Source of the DNA: an uncultured Candidatus Saccharibacteria bacterium | GTDB lineage: Bacteria > Patescibacteriota > Saccharimonadia > Saccharimonadales > Saccharimonadaceae | Assembly (NCBI GenBank): GCA_946404685.1 | Contig: CAMJEK010000002.1 | Span: forward strand, 1-48,020 | DNA length: 48,020 nucleotides | Direction: 5' to 3' | Shown: positions 27,800 through 32,646 of the stretch, one piece after another | Numbering within the stretch: the stretch's first letter is position 1 | Layout of the letters: the number at the start of each line of letters is the position of its first letter | Made by a program: the position numbers and the translations under genes | The notes under the pieces: model-generated | Told to the model about the DNA's origin: nothing | Seen by the model: the letters and a program-made list of their open reading frames with translations, nothing else | Databases searched by the model: none

Positions 27800-29518
27800 A
27801 TGATGAAAAAAATAGGTCAGCTATTGATTTTAGGATTAGTCCTGTCCTTTGTCGGGGCTGATTCTGCATGGGCGGATCCGTCTTCGACTATTGATATTGA
27901 AGTTACAACGACACTTAGTCTCTCGCTCAGCCAGACTTTAGTTAATTTTAATTTATCGTCTGGTAGCTTCATGACGAGAAATATTTCTATTACCGGCATG
28001 ACTAATAGTCCGGCCGGATACAGCATTAGTGTCAGGCCAACTGGGGAGACGGCTGGACTTAAACATAGCAGAGCCTCGGTTAGTGCGGTGATCCCGACGC
28101 TAGATGCGCCTGCTTTGGTGGCAGATTTTCCGGACAGTGGTTGGGGATATTCCGGAGAGGACACCGTGACAACTTATAATCCGTTTTCTACCGAGAATAC
28201 AAATGTTTTTGTGACGGGCGAGCACGGCCAGGCGACACACAAGTTTACGATTGGTATTGGTGTCGGCGAAGAGCTTCCGGCGGGTGTTTATTCAAATGAG
28301 TTGATGTTTACGATGGTGGGGAACATACCGCCAGAACCGGAACCGGCGGGAACGCAGGGCGGAAGCATTAATGAGCCTGGTGGCTCGAATGCTGGGCGTG
28401 TTTATGCGGCTAATTCGCTCGAGAGAGCCTTCGAGATTGCTTATGTGAAGGCAAGGAAACCAGTATATATTGAGGATAGTTCCGCCACGCTTGGTTGGCG
28501 TCCAATGACGGATACTGACGATGCTTCTGATAAGGAAATCCGCTTTGCGATTCAGGATATTGGTTTGACGTTTGAAGAGAATGATACGACGAAAGACGTC
28601 TGCGCTTGGGTTACCGATGGTACGGAAGCAAAGCTGTTGGATCTTAGGGACGGTAAGTCTTATTGGGTGGCTAAGCTTCAGGATGGTCATTGTTGGATGA
28701 CTCAGAACCTAGACTATAACATCGTTGCTGGAGTTCCAATCACTTCAGAAACGACAAACCTGAAACAATTCGGAGTTGGCGCATATACAACAGAAAACGG
28801 ATATGCCCAGGATGCAGCAACAGGAGTTATTTCTTGGACGCCAGCAAGCGGTGCGGGCACAATCGATGCTCAAGCTGCGGCTGCTGGAAATAGCTATGGG
28901 TTTATTACTGGATGGGCGGGCAGTTATTATGTTCCGGCCTCTGCGGATCCGGGTGATTGGTATTGGAAGAGCCAACCATTCTATCAGTCATCGGTTTGCG
29001 ATACTGCGAGTTGTAATTATCTTGCTAAGTCAAACGAACTCTATGCTACCTATTTTTCGGAAACTCCGAGTGCTGCGACAAATAACGAACACGGGCATGT
29101 GGGCAACTATTACGACTGGACAGCCGCTATCGCTACAAATGATTCTACAGTCTATGATGCGGCTACAAATATAATCGATAATCCGGGGAATTCAATCTGT
29201 CCTAAAGGTTGGAGGCTTCCTATTGGCTCAAACATAACTACTGGCGAGAATATGAATGAATTTATGCGCCTAATAAATCTTTATAATGGCGGGCTTACTA
29301 CTAGTAGCGAAAGCATTGAGGGGGCTCCGCTATACGTGGTTCGAGCTGGCGGCATTGGAAGTGGTAGATTATACTCTGCAGGGAACAATGGCCAATACTG
29401 GTCTTCAACTCTCAGTAGTGGATCTCACGTTTACGAGTTGTTCTTTACCTCAGGGCGTGTAGCTGCGTCTGATTCTACTCGGGATTTCGGGTATTCAGTG
29501 CGTTGTGTATCTGAATAG
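27800..29518 (+). CDS. Secreted FISUMP-domain (Fibrobacter paralogous domain) protein
   Basis: Signal peptide; GKSYWVAKLQDGHCWMTQNLDYNI, NSICPKGWRLPIGSN, QYWSSTLSSGSHVYELFFTSGRV...FGYSVRCVSE. Confidence 0.78.
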   Translation: MMKKIGQLLILGLVLSFVGADSAWADPSSTIDIEVTTTLSLSLSQTLVNFNLSSGSFMTRNISITGMTNSPAGYSISVRPTGETAGLKHSRASVSAVIPTLDAPALVADFPDSGWGYSGEDTVTTYNPFSTENTNVFVTGEHGQATHKFTIGIGVGEELPAGVYSNELMFTMVGNIPPEPEPAGTQGGSINEPGGSNAGRVYAANSLERAFEIAYVKARKPVYIEDSSATLGWRPMTDTDDASDKEIRFAIQDIGLTFEENDTTKDVCAWVTDGTEAKLLDLRDGKSYWVAKLQDGHCWMTQNLDYNIVAGVPITSETTNLKQFGVGAYTTENGYAQDAATGVISWTPASGAGTIDAQAAAAGNSYGFITGWAGSYYVPASADPGDWYWKSQPFYQSSVCDTASCNYLAKSNELYATYFSETPSAATNNEHGHVGNYYDWTAAIATNDSTVYDAATNIIDNPGNSICPKGWRLPIGSNITTGENMNEFMRLINLYNGGLTTSSESIEGAPLYVVRAGGIGSGRLYSAGNNGQYWSSTLSSGSHVYELFFTSGRVAASDSTRDFGYSVRCVSE

Positions 29519-29569
29519 GCTGTGGGTGCTGGAAAAATTGGAGAAAATATGCTATATATAATATATATA

Positions 29570-29725
29570 GCGTTTGAGTGGTTATCAGCCACGAGCTGGC
29601 GAAAGAACGGTTTTCCTAGTAGAATCGCCCGTGAATCTGCGTAAAAGACGAATTAAGGGCCGAGTAATCGGAAATTGGATGGTACCGCTCCGCATGAGTT
29701 CCAATGGTAAAACATTGGATTTTTT
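29570..29725 (+). promoter_or_regulatory. T-box-like leader of ileS with Rho-independent attenuator
   Basis: T-box motif ATTGGATGGTACCGC (29674-29688); ATTGGA can pair with TCCAAT (29700-29705); competing terminator TCCAATG-GTAAAA-CATTGGA-TTTTTT; upstream GGTTATCAGCC with Ile codon ATC. Confidence 0.82.
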
Positions 29726-29742
29726 AATATAAAGGAGAAACC

Positions 29743-32646
29743 ATGAAATACAAGTCCGGTGAAAGACGCAGGGCGATCGAATATGAAAAAGCCCTCGTGG
29801 AGTGGTGGAAAGAGAATCGCTGCTTCGAGAAGTCGGTCGAGAATCGTCCGATTGATAATTCGTATGTTTTTTATGACGGACCTCCGTTTATTACTGGTAA
29901 TCCACATCATGGAACGTTGCTTTCTTCAATCGTGAAGGATGCGGTGCCACGTTTCTGGACGATGCGCGGAAAGCGCGTTGAACGTCGTTGGGGTTGGGAT
30001 TGTCATGGTCTCCCAGCTGAAAACTTCGTTGAAAAACAACTTGGCATCACGGATCGTCGCGACATTGGTACGAAGATTTCTCTTGAAAGCTATATTTTGA
30101 AAGCGCGTGAGTCGATGGTGGCAAATTCAGAGACTTGGCGCGGCACGATTGACCGTATTGGACGTTGGGTTGATTTTGATAATTGCTACCGCACCATGAA
30201 CAAAGATTTTATGGAATCGGTATGGTGGGCATTCAAGACTTTGTATGAAAAGGGGAAGATCTATGAAGGCCGTAAGGTTTTGATGTATGATACAAAGTTT
30301 GCGACACCTGTTTCGAAGGCTGAAGTTACGATGGATAATGACGCCTATCAGGTGGTGACGGATCCAAGCGCCTATGTGAAGTTTAAAGCAACGGATGAGG
30401 ATTATTATTTCCTCGCCTGGACGACAACGCCATGGACTTTGCCGGCCAATATGTGTCTGGCGGTTAATCCGGAAATGGATTATGGGGTTTATGAGGTTGA
30501 AGGCGACAAACTCGTGGTTGCGCTTGAGCGTGCTAAAGTTTTGTTCCCAGATCTTAAGCCAGTGGTGGCTTATAAAGGTACGGCACTTGTGGGGAAGAAA
30601 TATGAACCAATTCTGCCAGTAGCAGACAGCTTGTTTGATCTTGGTCTTAGAGGTGAAGATGGAACGATGCGCCGTGATGAGACTTATACGGTGCTTGCTG
30701 GCGATTTTGTGTCTTCTGAAAATGGTACCGGAATTGTGCATATCGCGCCGGCCTATGGTGAAGATGACTACGCTTTGGTGCAGAAGCATGCCGTGGACTT
30801 TGTAGATTGTCTTGACGAGAACGGCTATTACTTGCCAGAGATGAGGAAGACTTTGAACGACCTTGGCGTCCGCGACACGGACGAAAATGGTATTCAAGTT
30901 TGGGCGGGAAATAAGTTTATTGCGAAGGTGCTTGAGGAGAGGGGAATCATCTTTAAGATTGAATATATTCAGCACGAATATCCGTTTAACCCTCGCTCGA
31001 AGGAACGCATTATCTATCGTGCATTCCCAAGCTGGTTCTTTGATGTTGATGGCAGCAAGAGCCTGATGCTTGAAGAGAACGAGAATATTAACTGGTTCCC
31101 AGAATACTTGAAGCATGGTCGCTTTGCGAAGAACATTGAGGCGGCGCCAGATTGGAACCTCTCGCGCGATCGTTTCTGGGCTACGGCAATGCCGGTCTGG
31201 AAGGGTGATAAAGGTTCGGTTAAGGTGGTGGGCTCTTACGATGAGCTTTATGAGCTATCTGGAGTACGTCTTGAAGACTATCACCGCCCATGGGTGGATG
31301 AAATCGAATTTGATATCGATGGCGAGCATTTTAAACGCATTGAGAAGGTTTTGGACTGCTGGTTTGAGTCTGGTTCGATGCCGTTTGCGCAGCTTCACTA
31401 TCCTTTTGAAAATAAAGAGAAATTCGAGCAGAACTATCCGGCAGATTTTATCGTAGAATATGTGGGGCAGGTGCGTGCATGGTTCTATTATGTTCATTGC
31501 GTGAATACGGCGCTATTTGGTCATAATGCGTATAAAAACGTGATTACGACTGGTACGCTGGCTGGAAATGATGGTCGCAAGATGAGTAAGTCACTAGGGA
31601 ACTATACGGATCCAAACGAATTGATGGATAAATATTCGGCTGATTCGCTACGCTTCCTTTTGCTTAGCTCGCCAGTTCTTGCTGGTGAAGACTTTGCGCT
31701 GCTTGATAAGGATGTTTCGGATACGGCGCGCAAGCTTTCGATGATTTGGAACGTGTATGATTTCTTCACGACGTATGCCGAGGTTGAGGGGTGGGATTCT
31801 GAAAATGCCAAGTTGGAACTGAAGAATCCACTCGACGCTTGGATTGTGTCTAGAGTTTATCAACTCCGTGACGAGATTACGGACGGGATGGAGAAATATG
31901 ATATCCCGACGGCAGTTTCTGGAATCTTGCCATTTGTTGATGATTTGTCGAACTGGTTTGTACGTCGTTCACGTCGTCGTTTTTCGAAGAATGATGATGC
32001 TGCTGACAAGGAAGAGGCATTCTCGACTTTGTATTTCGTCTTGGTGTATTTGAGCAAAATTATTGCACCGTTCGTGCCATTCCTCGCAGAGGAGTTGTAT
32101 CAAAAAATGACTCAGAGCGGCGAGTCGGTCCATCTTTTGGACTGGCCAGAAGCTGGTGCGATTAATACTGAGGTACTCGAGGAAATGTCCCGCACACGCG
32201 AGATTATCACCGAGGGACTTGCCCTTCGTATGCAGAAGTCTGATACTGAAGAACAAATTAAAGTTCGTCAGCCACTATCCGAGATTACATATGGTGGGGA
32301 AAAGCTTTCGGAGTTCTATGAAGGTATCATTGCGGATGAAGTGAACGTTAAAAAAGTTACTCATGCGGATGTAGTTTCTTTGAACAAAGAGCTTACGCCA
32401 GAACTGTTGGACGAGGGGTATACGCGTGAGTTGATCCGTGCCGTTCAGAATGCTCGTAAGAATGCTGGGCTCAACATGAATGACCATATATTATTATCTG
32501 TGTCCTGCAAGGTGCCAGAAGCGTTTTCTGACATGTTCATGGCGGAAGTGTTGGCGGATAGCGTGTCTGATAATGGTAACTATTCGTATGATGAGATCGT
32601 GAAGGTGAATGGGGAAAACGTCACGGTGTCGCTTGAAAGAGCGTAA
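29743..32646 (+). CDS. ileS: Isoleucyl-tRNA synthetase, type 2-like
   Basis: FYDGPPFITGNPHHGTLLSSIVKDAVPRFWTMRGKRVERRWGWDCHGLPAE, GRKMSKSLGNYTDP; SD AAAGGAG. Confidence 0.96.
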   Translation: MKYKSGERRRAIEYEKALVEWWKENRCFEKSVENRPIDNSYVFYDGPPFITGNPHHGTLLSSIVKDAVPRFWTMRGKRVERRWGWDCHGLPAENFVEKQLGITDRRDIGTKISLESYILKARESMVANSETWRGTIDRIGRWVDFDNCYRTMNKDFMESVWWAFKTLYEKGKIYEGRKVLMYDTKFATPVSKAEVTMDNDAYQVVTDPSAYVKFKATDEDYYFLAWTTTPWTLPANMCLAVNPEMDYGVYEVEGDKLVVALERAKVLFPDLKPVVAYKGTALVGKKYEPILPVADSLFDLGLRGEDGTMRRDETYTVLAGDFVSSENGTGIVHIAPAYGEDDYALVQKHAVDFVDCLDENGYYLPEMRKTLNDLGVRDTDENGIQVWAGNKFIAKVLEERGIIFKIEYIQHEYPFNPRSKERIIYRAFPSWFFDVDGSKSLMLEENENINWFPEYLKHGRFAKNIEAAPDWNLSRDRFWATAMPVWKGDKGSVKVVGSYDELYELSGVRLEDYHRPWVDEIEFDIDGEHFKRIEKVLDCWFESGSMPFAQLHYPFENKEKFEQNYPADFIVEYVGQVRAWFYYVHCVNTALFGHNAYKNVITTGTLAGNDGRKMSKSLGNYTDPNELMDKYSADSLRFLLLSSPVLAGEDFALLDKDVSDTARKLSMIWNVYDFFTTYAEVEGWDSENAKLELKNPLDAWIVSRVYQLRDEITDGMEKYDIPTAVSGILPFVDDLSNWFVRRSRRRFSKNDDAADKEEAFSTLYFVLVYLSKIIAPFVPFLAEELYQKMTQSGESVHLLDWPEAGAINTEVLEEMSRTREIITEGLALRMQKSDTEEQIKVRQPLSEITYGGEKLSEFYEGIIADEVNVKKVTHADVVSLNKELTPELLDEGYTRELIRAVQNARKNAGLNMNDHILLSVSCKVPEAFSDMFMAEVLADSVSDNGNYSYDEIVKVNGENVTVSLERA

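Follow-up and report, generated by a model that had tools for sequence, protein, structure and literature searches.

A predicted T-box leader coupling an ultrashort stem I to a transcription terminator upstream of ileS in Saccharibacteria, and its relatives across the CPR

Introduction

The described T-boxes closest to the leader analysed here are the class III ileS leaders of Actinobacteria, such as those of Nocardia farcinica and Mycobacterium tuberculosis. They combine a short stem I, which has a K-turn and lacks an elbow-binding motif, with an Ile specifier in an apical loop of 5-6 nt, an S-turn stem II, a IIA/B element, stem III and the T-box bulge. They carry a Shine-Dalgarno sequestrator, and most described members of the class, though not all, act on translation (PMC10482949, PMC7583486). 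Class I, the Bacillus subtilis tyrS type (RF00230), differs in its long stem I, which carries the interdigitated double T-loop motif, and in placing the specifier in an internal loop; its antiterminator and terminator compete, and the 3' strand of helix A1 takes part in both folds. As a rule, transcriptional T-boxes depend on a long stem I to capture tRNA quickly, and in those described elsewhere the A1 3' strand forms the 5' arm of the terminator (PMC7583486).

A 2008 survey found T-boxes in five phyla, namely Firmicutes, Actinobacteria and three others (PMC2494555). Our search, which covered openly accessible papers, returned no report of a T-box in the CPR phylum, so that the doubt voiced in the preliminary description as to whether any had been described there was justified. 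Here we analyse a leader in a Saccharibacteria MAG, that is, an ultra-small episymbiotic bacterium of the CPR, as had been supposed. The window is a 48,020-nt stretch of contig CAMJEK010000002.1.

Results

A T-box leader overlooked by default annotation

Upstream of the leader is a surface-protein gene, and downstream of it is ileS, the gene before which a T-box had been proposed. The ileS product matches TIGR00392 with 777.8 bits (cut-off 621.4) and is 99% identical to the IleS of the closest named relative. Its best matches among solved structures are IleRS entries, including cytoplasmic ones, which rank above 1ffy-type enzymes; the protein is far closer to the former than to the latter and looks like the type-2 (eukaryote-like) kind.

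The Rfam T-box model RF00230 aligns end to end (1-219 of 219 positions) with 29564-29706, scoring 41 bits (E 6.5e-8), well past what chance would give, and in a search of the whole genome this leader was the sole T-box match (E 2.8e-8). Because the gathering score of the model is 93 bits, a default Rfam scan did not report a T-box here, and routine annotation overlooks the leader. Overall, we put the probability that it is a T-box riboswitch working by transcription attenuation at about 93%. Its features are as follows.

27800-29518: surface-protein gene with a FISUMP domain
29557..29562, + strand: -10 promoter element TATAAT, from sequence; predicted start at about 29569, the first base of stem I
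29569-29725, + strand: predicted T-box leader, upstream of ileS
29569..29597, + strand: ultrashort stem I (AGC/GCU base, K-turn-like GUUUGA/GA, GUGG/CCAC helix), from alignment and covariation
29584..29586, + strand: specifier AUC (Ile) in the apical loop; tRNA-Ile(GAU) is present in the genome
29598..29629, + strand: stem II with S-turn (AAAGAA / AGUAGAA), from covariation and the conserved S-turn sequence
29630..29649, + strand: stem IIA/B region with F-box-like CCGUGA, from the RF00230 alignment and invariant CG/CG pairs; pseudoknot predicted
29660..29671, + strand: stem III CCGA-GUAA-UCGG, flanked by purines AAGGG (5') and AA (3')
29674..29705, + strand: antiterminator, with helix A1 29674-29679/29700-29705, bulge UGGUACC 29680-29686 and helix A2 29687-29690/29696-29699
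29700..29725, + strand: intrinsic terminator, from a terminator scan (7-bp stem, loop GUAAAA and U6), with the A1 3' strand serving as 5' arm
29732..29738, + strand: Shine-Dalgarno AAGGAGA, from sequence; outside terminator and antiterminator
29743..32646, + strand: ileS, isoleucyl-tRNA synthetase, 967 aa, type-2-like (TIGR00392)

Anatomy of the leader

The elements named in the preliminary description were all recovered: the T-box word ATTGGATGGTACCGC at 29674-29688, the antiterminator pairing ATTGGA/TCCAAT (29674-29679 with 29700-29705), the mutually exclusive terminator TCCAATG-GTAAAA-CATTGGA-TTTTTT at 29700-29725, and an Ile codon ATC near the 5' end, at 29584-29586 within GGTTATCAGCC. Measured from the predicted transcription start, the length had been estimated at about 150 nt; through the last U of the U-run it comes to about 157 nt.

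The 5' end had also been placed correctly, since the -10 element directly precedes stem I. Of 27 close leaders, 25 have a -10 matching at least five of six positions in the 26 nt that precede stem I, and only 6 have one in a control stretch; the signal is weaker across the wider class (19/40 versus 5/40), and a general promoter scan did not list the element at 29557-29562. Because the -10 directly precedes stem I in so many close leaders, its position indicates that the transcript would begin at the short stem I, with no longer stem I being overlooked.

Stem I spans 29 nt in the window and lacks an elbow-binding motif; throughout the alignment of 60 class leaders it is a short hairpin with an apical AUC, which keeps the same loop position while the neighbouring bases vary. 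Counted by Watson-Crick pairs, its apical loop UUAUCAG has 7 nt, above the 5-6 nt of Actinobacterial class III, and it would have 5 if a U-G pair closes it. Downstream, the purines around stem III (AAGGG-stem III-AA) fit the motif RRRxG-stem III-AA (PMC7583486). The bulge UGGUACC agrees with the 7-nt UGGNACC consensus, being complementary to tRNA NCCA and set inside a two-helix antiterminator, of which A2 closes with a terminal G-U pair (G29687-U29699). The same heptamer is found in 53 of the 60 class leaders and a near variant in the remainder, with UGGN invariant. The terminator has a short stem, rich in A+T, with three G-C pairs.

The likeness to the ultrashort stem I ileS T-boxes of Actinobacteria that had been pointed out is borne out (class III; PMC10482949): short stem I, K-turn-like element, apical Ile specifier, S-turn stem II, predicted IIA/B element, stem III, bulge and controlled gene all correspond. 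The differences lie in the host phylum, in the apical loop as drawn with 7 nt and in the intrinsic terminator, which stands in place of the Shine-Dalgarno sequestrator. With class I the leader shares the competition between antiterminator and terminator, with the A1 3' strand in both folds, whereas the long stem I, the interdigitated double T-loop motif and the internal-loop specifier are absent. The leader is, by its predicted structure, a class III-like architecture tied to a transcription terminator.

tRNA partner and mode of switching

The tRNA-Ile(GAU) of the genome ends in ...CCCCACCA, that is, in an ACCA complementary to the UGGU of the bulge, and its anticodon GAU reads the AUC specifier. 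The segment UCCAAU (29700-29705) is common to helix A1 and the terminator. The leader almost certainly senses uncharged tRNA-Ile to decide whether transcription continues, in the manner predicted from its parts. By analogy with the known T-box family, from which we take tRNA binding, the discrimination of charged from uncharged tRNA and the sign of the control, RNA polymerase would start the transcript at stem I, and an uncharged tRNA-Ile would then place its anticodon on AUC and its ACCA end on the UGGU bulge. The bound tRNA would keep helices A1 and A2 together, leaving UCCAAU unavailable to start the terminator, and ileS would be transcribed. The 3' end of a charged tRNA would not fit at the bulge, so the terminator would form and transcription would stop at the U-run. 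The calculated energies are -9.3 kcal/mol for the terminator versus -6.9 kcal/mol for the antiterminator module (A1 and A2), and the OFF state is therefore likely the default without tRNA.

We considered that the same T-box might act on translation, as in Actinobacteria, with an alternative fold hiding the Shine-Dalgarno. The prevalence of translational control among described class III T-boxes would favour this, and the antiterminator CUCC (from 29688) could pair with GGAG. However, the last C required for that pairing is not conserved, and an intrinsic terminator with U6-7 precedes a Shine-Dalgarno that lies exposed outside it. We therefore rejected Shine-Dalgarno sequestration at this leader and regard translational control as very improbable, in line with the transcriptional platform that had been assigned to it.

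Covariation and folding

We aligned 20 close leaders (the window's and 19 relatives; 205 columns) to one common structure. Compensatory changes occurred in 13 of its 33 pairs and 99.5% of cells were paired; none of 500 shuffles matched these values, and slid controls paired 29-37%. Across 60 leaders from Saccharimonadia, compensatory changes were found in 28 of the 33 pairs and 97.4% of cells were paired, in an alignment fitted to a structure-imposing model and so biased towards that structure. They include 5 of 6 pairs in A1, 4 of 4 in A2, 5 of 5 in stem II and 5 of 5 in stem III; A1 is nearly invariant in close relatives, and its covariation stems from the class-wide leaders. Sequence and covariation support the parts of the leader and how they pair, the use of UCCAAU by one fold or the other, the fit to the tRNA of the genome, and the controlled gene.

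Free folding was uninformative as a guide to stems I and II: the minimum-energy fold contains the terminator and lacks the stem I/II fold (z-score -2.17), and without tRNA or pseudoknots another long-range pairing dominates. An ordinary attenuator, or chance hairpins around a T-box-like word with no tRNA sensing, could draw on this modest z-score and on the sub-threshold Rfam score, but is a more remote prospect still, given the invariant specifier and bulge, the S-turn, the purine flanks of stem III, the covariation across the class, and the fact that among controls RF00230 at E<=0.01 matched only groups known for T-boxes (Bacillus, Lactococcus, Corynebacterium, Thermus and Deinobacterium).

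T-boxes across Saccharimonadia and the CPR

A covariance model, R1, built from the 20 close leaders matched 232 of 393 Saccharimonadia genomes and 102 of 152 genera (E<=0.01), nearly always once per genome. All 40 matches sampled from other genera lie upstream of ileS, about 28 of them directly before it and the others with one or two short genes between. A second TGGTACCG at 1576 in locus L035 was considered as a tandem T-box and rejected; it apparently belongs to the coding region upstream, and the locus has a single match to the model.

At the phylum level, 133 of the 380 genomes had an RF00230 match at E<=0.01, just 13 of them above the gathering score; a few of these matches (for example L238) lack a clear T-box bulge and could be false positives. 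Scanning 47 downstream proteins revealed mostly aminoacyl-tRNA synthetases: 16 belong to the ileS/valS group, followed by proS, thrS, tyrS and aspS, and argG is also present. In several other CPR leaders with a predicted ultrashort stem I, loop codons read by eye fit the gene downstream: AUC before ileS (L200, L226, L234), GUC before valS (L219, L233, L240), UGG before trpS (L204) and before a Trp-dehydrogenase-like gene (L203), GGC before glyS (L237), and AAC before a non-discriminating aspS (L214). We also observed a putative short-stem-I T-box in L213 (419-1006) before a 196-aa protein that NCBIfam matches with none of its models at E<=1e-10. Predicted T-boxes are common in the whole phylum, and the window's leader belongs to a class-wide family of them.

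A second predicted terminator design

All 27 leaders of the window's clade have a terminator with a U-run whose 5' arm is formed by the A1 3' strand. Most of the class outside this clade (examined in L142-L181) differs: stem III, upstream of the T-box, supplies the 5' arm with its 3' strand, and the antiterminator lies inside a terminator loop of about 39 nt. This design was seen in 33 of the 37 leaders classable by script, one or two of the 33 being weak. The median complementarity score between stem III strand and terminator arm was 25.25 within a locus versus 13 between loci and 12 for shuffled arms, and it is locus-specific, 33 of 40 exceeding 95% of shuffles. Free folding yields the nested hairpin, for example in L152 at -40.4 kcal/mol; before the last arm is made, the same leader folds into stem III plus the antiterminator (-22.2). 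Since stem III is needed for tRNA binding by the discriminator (PMC7583486), the choice in these leaders may be between stem III and the terminator, with a direction of control that we infer.

Probable repeated loss in the window's genus

Among 80 close ileS loci, 27 have the T-box and 53 do not. On an IleS tree, made by a quick method and with many weak forks, at least eight changes of T-box state are required. Repeated loss is the likelier history because the outgroup, which was picked from T-box carriers, and a basal clade all carry the T-box, and because the predicted T-box is spread class-wide. In about 38 of the 53 T-box-less loci (by our own count; L008, L010-L017 and others of L002-L081), a -10 matching at least five of six positions ends 6-8 nt before the ATG, and no obvious Shine-Dalgarno was seen in these same loci; most T-box-less ileS mRNAs are predicted to be leaderless. 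In L066 (1936-2003), a stem I without the specifier AUC and the 5' strand of stem II are followed by the ileS ATG; by its sequence this is a decaying T-box, a truncated remnant fused to the start codon.

Discussion

The window's copy is a clean example of its kind, and the surprise lies in the spread through the CPR, in a terminator predicted to work with an ultrashort stem I, and in the stem III design seen among its relatives. Taken together, we consider it fairly probable that T-boxes make up a widespread but so far unrecognised layer of regulation in the CPR, one that joins an ultrashort stem I to transcription termination and serves several amino acids, and that in most ileS T-boxes of Saccharimonadia the terminator uses up stem III's 3' strand while an intact antiterminator lies within its loop, a mode undescribed in the literature that we found.

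The presence of predicted T-boxes in about one third of the sampled CPR genomes would change the known range of these elements, and with it the question of how old they are. An ultrashort T-box coupled to a terminator would also challenge the view that transcriptional T-boxes require a long stem I to capture tRNA fast enough (PMC7583486). For Patescibacteria, inducible expression systems are still to be developed (PMC11665869). In episymbionts that depend on others for amino acids, the T-box offers a predicted direct sensor of starvation and a candidate control element.
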